DNA of 24,138 nt, taken from the IMG/VR virus record IMGVR_UViG_3300037847_001863, positions 1 to 24,138 of that record; one strand, 5' to 3'. The position numbers and the translations under genes are program-made. Each line of letters begins with the position of its first letter. Positions within the stretch are counted from its first letter, which is position 1. Source of the stretch: a virus. The notes under the pieces were generated by a model that had not been told where the DNA came from, did not search any database, and saw only the letters and a list, made by a program, of their open reading frames with translations. Positions 226-16,749 of the stretch are shown piece after piece.

Positions 226-348
226 CCCCTAGCTAAGAGAAAAAAGAATAGTTTGGGGGAAACCCCTTAAAAACTTTGTGTTTGCCTCTTTGGGGGAAGC
301 ATTTAAAAACTTTGGGGGAAGAAGTTTAAAAACTTCAACCCCTTAGCT
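226..348. repeat. Repeat module A: GGGGGA ... TTAAAAACTT units between CCCCTAGCT boxes
   Basis: Three units of the form TTTGGGGGA, 4-6 variable bases, TTAAAAACTT occur here; their G5 runs are at 255-259, 292-296 and 314-318. The module starts with CCCCTAGCT (226-234) and ends with CCCCTTAGCT (339-348). The last unit folds into a hairpin, GAAGTTT with AAACTTC plus flanking GGGG/CCCC (315-342), which could also terminate the minus-strand operon ending at 359. The same organisation recurs as module B at 1280-1400. Function is unknown; initiator or repressor binding sites, or a replication origin, are possible. Confidence 0.75.
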
Positions 349-358
349 TATAGAATTA

Positions 359-586
359 TTATTTATTAGATTCTATTATATCGAATAGATATTTTTTAAA
401 TTCACTAACATTTTGATTCATGGCTGAGCCAACTCTTATCCCATTGTATTTTATGACTTGAATCCATGTATTGAATGCCTTGTATGAAATTGGGATTTCA
501 TTCACATATTCATTCAAAAATATCCATTCGTTTTTATTTTCTAGTCTTTTTTTATTAGCTAGCTTTATAAACTCTGTTGTATTCAT
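359..586 (-). CDS. Hypothetical small early protein, 75 aa
   Basis: I do not recognise this protein. It is a 75-residue, Asn/Lys-rich, probably cytosolic chain with no signal peptide, membrane segment or cysteine motif. The central stretch around EIPISYKAFNTWIQ looks like a compact helical fold. Its ATG overlaps the stop of the 108-aa gene upstream in an ATGA arrangement (583-586), so translation is probably coupled. It is the last gene of the three-gene early operon driven from 1182-1210; the hairpin in the repeat module just downstream may end the transcript. Confidence 0.7.
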   Translation of the reverse strand: MNTTEFIKLANKKRLENKNEWIFLNEYVNEIPISYKAFNTWIQVIKYNGIRVGSAMNQNVSEFKKYLFDIIESNK

Positions 587-909
587 CGTTTTATCTCGCC
601 TCCTCTTAGCTGTGGGAAGGTTTTCATATTCAACATATAACTGACTAATTCGTTATCGGTTATATATCTTTTTGCACCATCATACCAATCCATAAAATGG
701 TAATGAACTGTTCCGTCTGCATACAGCCTGAATTCATCAGAAGGACCGCCCCAGCTAAGCTGCCATCTGTGGTATCCTCTTGGCTGTTCTACAAATGTAA
801 ACGGCTCGACATAATCAAAGCACAAACCCTCAAGTTCGCCTTTGCGAAAGTCCTGCATCCTATCAGCTAGGGCTGCATCTATTCTTTCTTCACATGTTTT
901 CTCTTTCAT
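583..909 (-). CDS. Conserved phage hypothetical protein with WGGPSDEF and DWYDGA motifs
   Basis: A 108-aa soluble protein. The segments LSWGGPSDEFRLY (about residues 52-64) and HFMDWYDGAKR (about 71-81) belong to a conserved phage/plasmid hypothetical family that I recall from its WGGPSDEF and (F/W)xDWxDGA signatures; no function is established that I know of. The N-terminal 30 residues are helical and charged. A GGAG ribosome site precedes the ATG. The stop overlaps the start of the 75-aa gene. The 3' end carries one copy of the 9-mer AGCTAAGAG (minus strand, 603-611). Confidence 0.8.
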   Translation of the reverse strand: MKEKTCEERIDAALADRMQDFRKGELEGLCFDYVEPFTFVEQPRGYHRWQLSWGGPSDEFRLYADGTVHYHFMDWYDGAKRYITDNELVSYMLNMKTFPQLRGGEIKR

Positions 910-960: not shown

Positions 961-1149
961 TTATTTGTTGCTATTAATTTCAGAAGCATATCTTTCGTAA
1001 ACTGTGTTTATTTTCATTCTTAGCTCACTAATATATTCATCCTGAAACTTCCTTTCGCTGTATTGCCTTAGAGCCTCACCTATTGTGTGAGCCTCTGCAA
1101 TATCTAGCTCGACTTCATACTTTTTGTTTGTATCAATAAACTTTGTCAT
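961..1149 (-). CDS. Hypothetical small early protein, 62 aa
   Basis: First gene of the left early operon. A strong AGGAG site lies seven bases before the ATG, and the promoter at 1182-1210 predicts a leader of about 25 bases. The 62-residue product is charged and helical, with alternating acidic and basic residues in IAEAHTIGEALRQYSERKFQDEY, and has no recognisable domain. The size and first position in an early phage operon would fit a host-takeover or regulatory protein, but nothing in the sequence shows it. Confidence 0.75.
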   Translation of the reverse strand: MTKFIDTNKKYEVELDIAEAHTIGEALRQYSERKFQDEYISELRMKINTVYERYASEINSNK

Positions 1150-1247: not shown

Positions 1248-1263
1248 TGTTTCACGTGGAACA
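1248..1263. promoter_or_regulatory. parS: parS-like ParB-binding site
   Basis: The sequence TGTTTCACGTGGAACA is, on the other strand, TGTTCCACGTGAAACA, the classical chromosomal parS sequence recognised by ParB of many bacteria. By a rough estimate at about 35% GC a given 16-mer of this composition is expected about 1e-5 times in 24 kb. It lies in non-coding DNA, 38 bases upstream of the early promoter and 17 bases before repeat module B. No parA or parB gene is visible here, so the partner would be host ParB or a phage protein outside the window. Sequence identity is seen; binding is inferred. Confidence 0.75.
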
Positions 1264-1662: not shown

Positions 1663-1968
1663 TTAATCATACTTTTCATCATTATCCTCCTGTGTGTTTT
1701 CTCTCTCAGCTAACAGCTTATTTGCCTCAGCTAATTTCTGTTTCGTCATCGCATATCTCTGCCTAGAATATTCGTTGAGTTTATCTTTATTCTTATGATA
1801 ATACTCTCTCATTTTCTCTCTATCAAGTTCTTTCTGCTCTTCTGTACGAGAAGCCCTTTTCGCTCTTACAGAAGCTAACCTTTTTTCTTTATGTTTTTGG
1901 TAATCAGCCCTTGTTTTGGCATTATGTTTATCACGATTACGCTCATAATACTCTTTATTGTAAGTCAT
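1663..1968 (-). CDS. Basic, helical YYxxNxDK-repeat protein
   Basis: A 101-aa protein almost entirely of charged helix. It carries repeated elements of the type EYYxxNRDK (residues 6-14) and EYYHKNKDK (about 55-63), each followed by a short basic linker. Such repeats are known at the N-termini of phage HNH or recombination endonucleases, but the nuclease part is absent here, so this may be a free DNA- or RNA-binding segment. The tail is acidic. A clear AAGGAG precedes the ATG. As last gene of the recombination operon, a role in DNA handling is likely but not shown. Confidence 0.75.
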   Translation of the reverse strand: MTYNKEYYERNRDKHNAKTRADYQKHKEKRLASVRAKRASRTEEQKELDREKMREYYHKNKDKLNEYSRQRYAMTKQKLAEANKLLAERENTQEDNDEKYD

Positions 1969-2241: not shown

Positions 2242-2384
2242 TTCTTATCCTCCTGTACTTGTTTATATAATTTGTCAACTTCAAGCATGTATTCTCTCTG
2301 TGACAAAATTCCTATATCTAATTTCTTGATGAGGTCAACTAAAATGTCAACCTCATCTTTTGTGTAGCCAACAGACTCAAGCAT
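2238..2384 (-). CDS. Hypothetical 48-aa protein inside the recombination operon
   Basis: A short gene that exactly bridges its neighbours: its ATG lies inside the last codons of the annealase-exonuclease gene (8-base overlap) and its TGA overlaps the ATG of the 87-aa gene. A GAGG ribosome site stands seven bases before the ATG. The product begins MLESVGYTKDEVDILVDLIK and ends in Lys, with a helical, strongly charged composition and no cysteine. The tight fit on both sides is the main argument that it is real. Function is unknown. Confidence 0.7.
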   Translation of the reverse strand: MLESVGYTKDEVDILVDLIKKLDIGILSQREYMLEVDKLYKQVQEDKK

Positions 2385-3717
2385 TATTTGCCTCATCATA
2401 AATTAACTTAACATTCTGCATTGGGTTTCCTTCGTAAGCTATTGGTTTCTTTGGCAATTCTTTATTTCCTAACAATGCCTCCGAGTAGTCCTCAAGGTTT
2501 TGTATTAAGTTCTTTTCATAATCCATATCTCTTGTGTATCTCCATATTTTTGTGTGCGTTGGTGTCCAATTAACCAAGTCAACATACTCTAATGGTAGCT
2601 TAGGGTCTGCCATTTTGAGTACCATTAACTGACCTGCCACTTGTGGAAGGTATTGTCTAGGAAACTCATCATAGTTTGCGTTGCCTTGTGCTGAACATTT
2701 TATTTCCACCAGCCCTTTCTTGTCCATAGTCATGCCGTCAGGGGTACAACTTAGAGCAATAGTTCTGTCAGCTTTTGTGTTCATCCAATCAGAAACTTTC
2801 CAATTTTTTTGATTGTCACAATAGTGCAAACAAGCCTCCTGATTGACCAACATCCACTTTGCTATGCCACATCTCTCATTATATGTGCCGTATTTAACAC
2901 TAGCTAATGCTTTATCAGGAAGAGGTATGTCCTCTTGTTTTATGTCTGCTTGTAGTCTTTTCATCCTACTAGCTGGAGACATCCTCCAGTCATTCTTAGC
3001 TTTATAGGTCAGTCCGTAAGCATAATCTTTGAATAAAGATGTTCTTAGATTATCAGGTATATAAGGGTGTTCTTCCTCTTTTATCTCAGGCTGTAAGGCT
3101 GTGCCAAATTCCATTTCATTAACTTCTTTATCCTTTAGCTCGCCTTTCTTAAATGCCTGACATATAGCCTGTTCTTGCTTATCAGAATCCCTAATATCTA
3201 ACAATGTTTTGTTAGATATGTTGGTTATTGCTGGCTCTCCTTCAGGCATGGTAGTGCCATCGTGGAAAATTTGTATCCCTAAGCCAAACATAGCAATACA
3301 TTTGACCATAGCCCTCATTTTAGCCGTATTTATATCAAAACAGCTTGGTTTTATTATTGGGCTATTCTTGTAGTCAGTGACAGGATACCACATTTCTTTG
3401 TATAGATTTCCTATCTCTACCCTACAATAGATTTCTTGTGAGCCATCCTCAAAGAATCTATGTTTACTATCATCAAACTCAACATGGTGTTGAGGATAAT
3501 GTTTATTAAGTTCTGATATGGCATAAGACCATTTCAAATAGGTAAACCCATTTTTTAGTTCTGTCTTGCCTGTCACATCAATTTTAGACAAAGTATTCCA
3601 AACATCTGCGTATGTTGGCTCTTTTTTTGATATGTCATCTATTATTTCTGTTAACATATCTATCCTTTTGTCAGGTTTTTCATTACTACCTGGAAGATTT
3701 TCAACTTTTTTATTCAT
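2377..3717 (-). CDS. Fused single-strand annealing protein (DUF1071/Sak3-type) and YqaJ/lambda-type exonuclease
   Basis: A 446-aa protein with two recognisable parts. Residues about 35-155 resemble DUF1071/Sak3 annealases: VTGKTELKNGFTYLKWSYA (48-66), EMWYPVTD (108-115) and FDINTAKMRAMVKCIAMFGLG (127-147). Residues about 225-420 match the YqaJ/lambda exonuclease fold, with E281 (in GTYNERCG), D327 (TPDG), E338-x-K340 (LVEIKC) and Q359-xxx-Q363 (QVAGQL), a complete catalytic set. Such exonucleases resect 5' ends and hand the single strand to the annealase; normally they are two genes. The gene heads the recombination operon. No ribosome site is visible and the predicted start of transcription is only a few bases before the ATG, so the message may be leaderless. 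Domain calls are by eye. Confidence 0.8.
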   Translation of the reverse strand: MNKKVENLPGSNEKPDKRIDMLTEIIDDISKKEPTYADVWNTLSKIDVTGKTELKNGFTYLKWSYAISELNKHYPQHHVEFDDSKHRFFEDGSQEIYCRVEIGNLYKEMWYPVTDYKNSPIIKPSCFDINTAKMRAMVKCIAMFGLGIQIFHDGTTMPEGEPAITNISNKTLLDIRDSDKQEQAICQAFKKGELKDKEVNEMEFGTALQPEIKEEEHPYIPDNLRTSLFKDYAYGLTYKAKNDWRMSPASRMKRLQADIKQEDIPLPDKALASVKYGTYNERCGIAKWMLVNQEACLHYCDNQKNWKVSDWMNTKADRTIALSCTPDGMTMDKKGLVEIKCSAQGNANYDEFPRQYLPQVAGQLMVLKMADPKLPLEYVDLVNWTPTHTKIWRYTRDMDYEKNLIQNLEDYSEALLGNKELPKKPIAYEGNPMQNVKLIYDEANNA

Positions 3718-4991: not shown

Positions 4992-5377
4992 AACATAACA
5001 ACGATTTTAAGTTTGATTTAGATTTTGGTTTAATATCTGAGAAATATTACGGCAAGGTTGTATCTGACATTGCCAATGGATTGACAGAGTGTAAGGCTGA
5101 AAGAGACCAATGGGTTGAGACAGGCAATACTTTTGTTGAGTTCAAATCAAGGGGCAAGCCTAGCGGTATTGCTACTACTCATGCAGACCATTGGGTAGTG
5201 TCATTTTACAAAGGCAAGGAGGTTTGTTTTACCTTGACAGTGCCTATTGAAAGCATGAAAAAAATAGCTAGAAAAGGCAGATTGATAAGAGGAGGAGATG
5301 AAAACACATCTGAAGGGATGTTGGTTTCTATACAAGATTTAATTAACCCTGACAATTATGGAGGCGGAAATGATTGA
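4988..5377 (+). CDS. PD-(D/E)XK-like nuclease, possible junction resolvase
   Basis: A 129-aa protein. It opens with a short acidic beta segment (FKFDLDFG), then GLTECKAERDQWVETGNTF (31-49), VEFKSRGKPSGIATT (50-64) and ADHWVV (66-71). This series matches a phage family I associate with PD-(D/E)XK nucleases, with E34-x-K36 and D40 as likely metal ligands and the TGN and GxPSGI segments as family hallmarks. Junction or branched-DNA cleavage during packaging and recombination would be the expected role. The start is TTG, overlapping the previous TGA (TTGA), after a GAGAGTTAGG stretch. The nuclease call is by motif only. Confidence 0.6.
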   Translation: MKHNNDFKFDLDFGLISEKYYGKVVSDIANGLTECKAERDQWVETGNTFVEFKSRGKPSGIATTHADHWVVSFYKGKEVCFTLTVPIESMKKIARKGRLIRGGDENTSEGMLVSIQDLINPDNYGGGND

Positions 5378-5480
5378 TATAATAAAAAAGATAATGTATG
5401 CGTATGACGATTTACCTGAGCTAGTACAGGCATTCATATTTATATCTTTAGTTATATTTTTTTGGGAGGCTGTGCTGTAG
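5370..5480 (+). CDS. Single-pass membrane microprotein, 36 aa
   Basis: A 36-codon gene starting with ATG at 5370, eight bases before the previous stop. A strong GGAGG stands five bases upstream, which supports translation. The N-terminal half is charged (MIDIIKKIMYAYDDLPEL) and the C-terminal half is one hydrophobic segment (AFIFISLVIFFW, about 21-32), so a small inner-membrane protein is expected. It could be a superinfection-exclusion or lysis-timing peptide; nothing specific shows this. Confidence 0.6.
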   Translation: MIDIIKKIMYAYDDLPELVQAFIFISLVIFFWEAVL

Positions 5481-5768: not shown

Positions 5769-6292
5769 ATCCTGAGCTGTTAACATTGCTACTACCTAGT
5801 AGCCCATCTTATGAGATTAAATCCGCTAATCACAACGCCCTTACACCCCAAGACATTGCATACCTACTAGCTAAGAAAAGATTGAAGAAGAGAGAGTTAA
5901 ACATACTCTTAGCTAAGTTTATTGATTCTAGCTCAGCACACGAAGAATTGTTCGATGAAATGATGGACAGAGCCTGTGAAATATTTATGAAAGATGGTGT
6001 GCCTGATAAGCCTGGAATCATTAGGAAGTTTACAAGACTCGCTCTTGCCGAGACTTTATTTACTAAATGTTTTATTTGTAAAGGCGTAGGAACAATCGTA
6101 ATAGACAATAGTAAATTAGAAAAATGCCCTCATTGTGAGGGCACAGGTGAGTTTATATATGAGGATGTGCATAGAGCACATATTATGAAAATCCCTATGA
6201 AGTTATTCAAAAAACATAAAAAACAATATATCAAAATCAGAGAAATTATTATTGATATCGAAAATGAAGCATTAAGAAAGCTAGGTGATTAA
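5765..6292 (+). CDS. DnaJ-type zinc-finger protein, possible late regulator
   Basis: A 175-aa protein with two CxxCxGxG elements, C102-FI-C105-KGVG and C121-PH-C124-EGTG, which together form one DnaJ-type zinc site. A helical N-terminal part (LTPQDIAYLLAKKRLKKRE) precedes it and a Lys-rich helical part follows. In several phages late antitermination proteins of the Q type carry such a zinc site, and the position at the end of the early operon suits a late switch. The start overlaps the previous stop (ATGA). A general nucleic-acid-binding role is the safer reading. Confidence 0.65.
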   Translation: MNPELLTLLLPSSPSYEIKSANHNALTPQDIAYLLAKKRLKKRELNILLAKFIDSSSAHEELFDEMMDRACEIFMKDGVPDKPGIIRKFTRLALAETLFTKCFICKGVGTIVIDNSKLEKCPHCEGTGEFIYEDVHRAHIMKIPMKLFKKHKKQYIKIREIIIDIENEALRKLGD

Positions 6293-7120: not shown

Positions 7121-7345
7121 CTATTGTAATGGATTGTCTGACCTAGCTTTAATTTCATCTACCTTAGCTTTTAGCACAGCAATCTCTGCTTTGTTTATTG
7201 CAATATCTTGCTCTAATGGTTTTATGTTCGGTGCTTTTTGAGATTCAAGATTTTCAACTCTTTCAATAAGTTGTCCCTGAAATACGAAAAGCGAGGCTAT
7301 AGCAATTATAGCTCCGACTGCACCAGTTATTGTTTTAATATCCAC
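7121..7345 (-). CDS. Membrane-anchored coiled-coil protein, i-spanin-like
   Basis: A 74-aa protein with one N-terminal membrane segment (about 8-24, GAVGAIIAIASLFVF) and an exposed coiled coil of about 45 residues (QLIERVENLESQ, EQDIAINKAEIAVLKAKVDEIKA). That is the layout of inner-membrane spanins, which with an outer-membrane lipoprotein break the outer membrane at lysis. The start is GTG with a perfect AAGGAGG four bases upstream, inside the last codons of the exported 549-aa gene. A general membrane-tethered structural role remains possible. Confidence 0.6.
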   Translation of the reverse strand: MDIKTITGAVGAIIAIASLFVFQGQLIERVENLESQKAPNIKPLEQDIAINKAEIAVLKAKVDEIKARSDNPLQ

Positions 7346-16066: not shown

Positions 16067-16495
16067 CTAATGTATAGATTTTAATTCTTTCGTTAATATT
16101 GTGTATGTGTGTTCATACCCAAATCTTTTTAATTTTTTGACAAACCCTTTTCGGCATGCTGTTTCCATAGCAACACAGTCATTGTCTGTCGCCCACTCTT
16201 CTAAAACCTCTAAAAATTCATCTACCCAATCATCCATGTCTTTGCCTCCTAATGTGACAATGCGACAAGTTTTCATTCTAGGGTATAAAACAATTTCTGT
16301 GGTCAATACAGATATTATGTTTGCATCTTCGTCGAAAATTAACCATAGTTGCATATCTGCTAGTAACAATTTGTCATAAATGTCTTCGACATTCATCTCT
16401 TGTTTGCTTTTATTGTTACCCATTTCGATAAATTTTTTACATTTATCCCAAACATTGTTAATTTCTGAAGATGGTATCCCTGATACATACATCAT
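16067..16495 (-). CDS. GNAT-like N-acetyltransferase fold protein
   Basis: A 142-aa protein with the strand-helix layout of GNAT folds: MQLWLIFDEDANIISVLTTE as central strands, the segment RIVTLGGKDMDDWV and a long acidic helix FLEVLEEWATDNDC, then FVKKLKRFGYEHTYTIL as C-terminal strands. The typical acetyl-CoA loop is not clear, so enzyme activity is uncertain; similar phage proteins occur within virion operons. A TTG at 16507 extends the frame, but the ATG at 16495 overlaps the previous stop (ATGA) and is preferred. Confidence 0.6.
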   Translation of the reverse strand: MMYVSGIPSSEINNVWDKCKKFIEMGNNKSKQEMNVEDIYDKLLLADMQLWLIFDEDANIISVLTTEIVLYPRMKTCRIVTLGGKDMDDWVDEFLEVLEEWATDNDCVAMETACRKGFVKKLKRFGYEHTYTILTKELKSIH

Positions 16496-16749
16496 AGTTT
16501 TACCCAACTCCCTGCTGCGTTTCTAAAATATATGCCCTCGCCTGAGCCTGGATTAAAATTAGAGCCGTCTGCATATACAATATCTCCTTGTTTTATTTTA
16601 TCAGGTGTAACATTTTTTACCTCAATAAATGTAACAGGGGTTTCTTGTAAAGCTCCTTGTAATTTAATTAATTCTTCGAATATGTATTTTGGCAAATCTT
16701 CAGGGTTATCAGGTACAGGGTTAGGAGTATATCTTGGTGCTTGTGCCAT
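16492..16749 (-). CDS. Small virion-associated protein, 85 aa
   Basis: An 85-aa protein with a Pro/Asn-rich start (APRYTPNPVPDNPEDLP), a helix (KYIFEELIKLQGAL) and a beta-rich C-terminal half ending in GIYFRNAAGSWVKL. The last part resembles the small beta domains found in phage tail or fibre-associated proteins. It is coupled on both sides (TAATG at 16749; ATGA at 16492). A structural role is inferred from position. Confidence 0.65.
   Translation of the reverse strand: MAQAPRYTPNPVPDNPEDLPKYIFEELIKLQGALQETPVTFIEVKNVTPDKIKQGDIVYADGSNFNPGSGEGIYFRNAAGSWVKL

Follow-up and report, generated by a model that had tools for sequence, protein, structure and literature searches.

What does a chromosome-type parS site do on a phage in which no ParB or ParA of its own is found? 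The window, by which we mean the whole stretch of 24,138 bp that was analyzed, is a virus record whose genes include those for a Sak-like annealing protein, the small subunit of a terminase and a tail tubular protein of the T7 type, and it belongs to a podovirus family of marine bacterial viruses. The 16-mer TGTTTCACGTGGAACA at positions 1248–1263 is identical to parS and conforms to the 16-bp chromosome-type motif TGTTYCACGTGRAACA; it is the sole match in the window at two or fewer mismatches. The features to which we refer below are the following.

247–337, plus strand: second cluster of the 22–23-bp repeat found beside parS, itself without parS
583–909, minus strand: 108-aa ORF (PHROG 36747), the family marker used for finding relatives
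961–1149, minus strand: 62-aa ORF with homologues in contigs L337 and L338
1210–1182, minus strand: leftward σ70-like promoter, TTGACA-17-TAATAT with a TG extension (consensus match only)
1248–1263, plus strand: parS, at what we call family position A
1294–1398 (also delimited as 1288–1398), plus strand: 22–23-bp direct repeats TTGGGGGA...TTAAAAACTTT, which flank parS
2377–3717, minus strand: Sak-like single-stranded DNA annealing protein with a RecE-like C-terminal part

An earlier note, made from the letters of the window, had placed an exact parS in non-coding DNA between an early promoter and a repeat module, and had estimated the chance of such a match at about 1e-5. Each of these statements was confirmed. 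The site lies within a 513-bp gap between the ORFs at 961–1149 and 1663–1968 (both on the minus strand), and the expectation for an exact 16-mer in either orientation in 24,138 bp was 1.0e-5 under both order-0 and order-2 models. The promoter reads into the 62-aa ORF; parS lies upstream of it, 37 bp from its −35 hexamer, and the repeat cluster (TTGGGGG/TTAAAAACTT) starts 46 bp to the right of the site. Among relatives, the same parS–promoter arrangement (again a consensus match only) was seen alongside the sites at position A and at a second position, B, and in contig L338 the same repeat cluster lies 44–47 bp from both. The repeats TTGGGGGA..TTAAAAACTT are kept in several non-coding gaps (in L338 at 5368–5415, 6182–6241 and 7206–7229) and adjoin parS at A and B. 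We also observed that AGCTA/TAGCT is over-represented in the whole window (126 counts versus about 50 expected), where it frequently takes the form CTAGCTAA close to the ends of genes.

As the window is a linear fragment, it does not by itself prove that ParB and ParA are absent, but its overlap with a relative closes this gap. Contig 3300030102_002631 (G008), with DNA about 80% identical, overlaps the window at both ends, so that together they make up a circular map of about 34.5 kb. No match to ParB_N, to the ParA-type AAA_31 domain or to tyrosine integrases was found in the window or in this contig. The earlier observation that no parA or parB was visible is thereby extended to the whole map, as is the search for a parB-like gene that it had proposed. 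A DUF932 gene near the sites was considered as a candidate ParB and rejected, since Pfam identifies it as DUF932 and not as ParB.

To determine whether the site is conserved, we used relatives that had been collected by protein similarity and not by the presence of parS. All lineages in which the region from Sak to TerL was covered carried a non-coding parS with at most one mismatch to TGTTYCACGTGRAACA, located at one of three positions (A, B or C) beside promoters or upstream of TerL; the stretch in which relatives always have a site is bounded on the left by the Sak gene. At position A, the site is identical in the window, L376 and L337, and is exact in L124 and L033, where the flanks differ. 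Position B holds CGTTCCACGTGAAACA in L377 and TGTTTCATGTGAAACA in L379–L382; L376 has a copy there with two mismatches. Upstream of TerL, at position C, the site is exact in L383 and has one mismatch in L384–L386, while contig 3300038520_001123 carries both an exact A and a B with one mismatch. Some variants in the family have an altered core (CATGTG) or differ at two bases. Contigs L378, L340 and L341 stop before or begin after the positions concerned. Site A is missing from L125, L127 and L128; these contigs share their metagenomes of origin with L379–L382, which have the site at position B, and probably represent pieces of those genomes. Two-mismatch sites in L344 and L354 lie within the TerL coding frame (VSRGK) and were set aside as coincidences.

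Each covered lineage thus keeps a site at 0–1 mismatch, whereas flanks and position vary between lineages, as would be expected of an orphan-parS element under selection. Between L379 and L380, for instance, the site is identical at 16/16 positions and the flanks at 70%, and between L383 and L385 the values are 13/16 and 46%. The earlier note had named a lack of conservation in related phages as grounds for refutation; this comparison did not refute it, the sequence being kept at 0–1 mismatch at places that vary. Sites at one mismatch or fewer are expected at 1.6e-3 per 34.5-kb genome. These data bear on the possibility that the site is a functionless chance match or leftover host DNA. The closest isolated pelagiphages (EXVC032P and HTVC106P) are without the site, and many viral parS 16-mers are coding coincidences (see below), as such a reading would have it; the chance expectation of 1e-5, the presence of the site in every covered lineage at changing positions and flanks unlike the rsmG gene that holds parS in the presumed host all speak against it. 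Family conservation makes a functionless match unlikely, and we regard this explanation as scarcely credible. Judged by its sequence and its conservation, the 16-mer in the window is a real, conserved orphan parS.

Which ParB could act on it depends on the host. Among isolated phages, pelagiphages give the best matches (58% to EXVC032P for TerL, 50% to HTVC106P for the capsid); from these matches, distant as they are, we infer a SAR11-like host, SAR11 or a near relative being likely. A tetranucleotide comparison was uninformative, no host prophage with the Sak protein was found in the bacterial genome contigs searched, and in 397 Pelagibacterales genomes the Sak protein gave one weak partial match only. 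Among 148 sampled Pelagibacterales genomes, 84 match TGTTNCACGTGNAACA, with one site per matching genome. This parS is nearly always TGTTTCACGTGAAACA, the exact phage form occurring in two listed genomes, and sits inside rsmG, adjoining parA-parB (L253, L478–L487). The SAR11 ParB can be aligned with that of Caulobacter (E 2e-59) and, of the parS-contacting residues whose roles were previously described (PMC7383237), keeps R173, N178 and G201, with R204 replaced by K. The presumed hosts, themselves assigned by phage similarity, thus encode ParA and a ParB with conserved contact residues, and binding of host ParB to the window site is likely.

We then asked how far such sites extend among other viruses. 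The TGTTTCACGTGGAACA-type 16-mer was present in at least 120 IMG/VR contigs, versus 58 and 1 for control 16-mers. Many of the viral matches fall in coding frames (VSRGT, VPRET, FHVEH), so that raw counts overstate function, and scans of viral contigs for parS must separate coding coincidences from intergenic sites. Among the matches listed, 29/134 parS sites were intergenic versus 3/58 for the control, and for the canonical form TGTTTCACGTGAAACA 50 of the 142 sites listed were intergenic. In the group with HTVC027P-type TerL, 17 of 40 sites among the matches listed lie no more than 200 bp upstream of TerL, versus 1.2 expected by random placement and a maximum of 7 in 2000 simulations, although the related contigs are non-independent. 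ParB_N was absent in 48/50, 28/28 and 26/27 parS-bearing records (partly overlapping sets, mostly fragments), and ParB was present in only 3 of roughly 100 parS-bearing contigs tested, again mostly fragments. The one-mismatch site at 16412 of HTVC027P is annotated as intergenic but by eye lies inside an unannotated nuclease-like frame (FHVKH) and was not used; that frame corresponds, also by eye, to L476:2680–3030 and HTVC027P 16179–16529.

Several arrays and motifs were seen in the same survey. Five exact canonical parS sites occur within 0.8–0.9 kb in each of L503:2657–3444 and L530:10535–11462, upstream of a terminase-like gene and with no ParB match, and eleven exact copies of TGTTTCACGTGGAACA occur in 5 kb of a 117-kb viral contig of 65% GC without a ParB match (L045:8906–13878). 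In the HTVC027P-type group, GGGCCATGTTTCTGACAAATA-like and AGGGGCCCC motifs recur around parS just before TerL (L494, L505, L513, L515, L528, L568, L577, L581, L585, L595, L603, L604).

The placement of the sites raises the question of whether host ParB on phage parS acts mainly as a local regulator, its clamp silencing the adjacent promoter until phage replication dilutes ParB and so working as a copy-number timer. The silenced promoters would be those of small genes at A and B and of TerL at C. Every site in the family is either 17 to about 75 bp away from a promoter −35 box or just upstream of TerL, the TerL-proximal sites of the HTVC027P-type group agree with this arrangement, and P. aeruginosa ParB represses promoters beside parS3 and parS4 (PMC5521831), which are likewise intergenic parS sites beside promoters, although chromosomal ones, repression having been demonstrated there only. 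That every family position is upstream of a promoter or TerL favors some promoter role. On the other hand, the family site has moved between three positions, which argues against a purely local role, and the controlled gene differs among relatives, which would be odd for one circuit. Moreover, phage non-coding space is mostly promoter space, so that promoter adjacency may reflect the lack of other room. Overall, mainly local regulation appears rather unlikely.

The same location upstream of promoters and near TerL would suit an operator that serves a phage-encoded repressor or terminase protein and owes its likeness to parS to chance or convergence, and one relative has a 69-aa ORF with weak HTH-like similarity, below the cut-off. 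However, phage groups that are unrelated and differ in their terminases have a 16-mer equal to the bacterial parS, a DNA-binding protein common to these groups was not seen, and a site that changes place yet is retained is easier to reconcile with a recruited trans-acting protein than with a fixed operator. We consider an operator quite improbable.

The nearest precedent is SGI1, which carries parS mimics without its own ParAB and whose mimics are bound by the ParB of IncC plasmids (PMC10954446). SGI1 and the phage are both mobile elements that bear another replicon's type of parS and lack ParA and ParB. The SGI1 case concerns an enterobacterial plasmid as victim, with measured binding, stabilization and incompatibility; in the window's family a phage bears the site, and the ParB presumed to be targeted is that of the host chromosome. 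The phage site would be an instance of parS hijacking outside the SGI1 system. With chromosomal parS of the B. subtilis/Caulobacter type, including the single SAR11 site in rsmG, it shares identical 16 bp (two sampled SAR11 genomes having the exact form), but it lies outside any parAB context and away from the oriC surroundings of such sites. Phage-plasmids with their own ParABS, such as P1 and extrachromosomal mycobacteriophages, likewise carry parS on the phage genome, but they encode ParB and usually also ParA, whereas the window's family has neither. No description of a phage-borne orphan parS was found in the open-access literature searched.

The SGI1 precedent also suggests that the site could serve partition of a plasmid-like carrier state by host ParA and ParB: parS would be sufficient in principle, and SGI1 gains stability in this way from plasmid ParAB (PMC10954446). 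The tyrosine integrase of temperate integrating phages was absent from the map, leaving this idea without independent support, and neither a clear repressor above the cut-off nor an independent sign of persistence was seen. A carrier state is therefore doubtful, if somewhat less so than the operator.

Since the relatives keep parS and the virus has no ParB, the virus probably recruits the segregation protein of its host. The core of the earlier proposal, recruitment of host ParB, receives good support from conservation in relatives, absence of ParB and ParA from the phage and the presence in presumed hosts of ParB and the same type of site. The effects that it had suggested are candidates; that ParB binds, and that selection acts on recruitment or titration more than on control of a nearby promoter, is what we infer. 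Our favored explanation, which we think probable, is that the orphan parS loads host chromosomal ParB onto a phage without its own ParB or ParA, and hijacks or titrates the host partition system. Early in infection, ParB-CTP clamps of the host would enter phage DNA at its parS and spread along it, the loaded ParB would engage the host ParA/SMC partition machinery, and rising numbers of phage copies would draw ParB away by titration from the one parS that the host chromosome carries. Provided that ParB binds, there is about an even chance that the outcome is hijack or titration; promoter control by ParB is a possible but weaker candidate, and positioning or carrier-state partition is unlikely. 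Titration is plausible, since Caulobacter is killed by a plasmid that carries two parS sites (PMC5815017), and hosts having only one parS should be vulnerable to it.

More broadly, the case is evenly balanced that orphan parS is a widespread phage element: many unrelated phages, marine ones included, would have a host-type parS, single or arrayed, near the early control region or terminase gene, and host ParB loading there as a clamp on DNA would let them time late genes by copy number, capture the host segregation machinery or disturb the segregation of the host chromosome. If host ParB does load on phage parS, the site would give these phages a route to engage the chromosome segregation system of their host.
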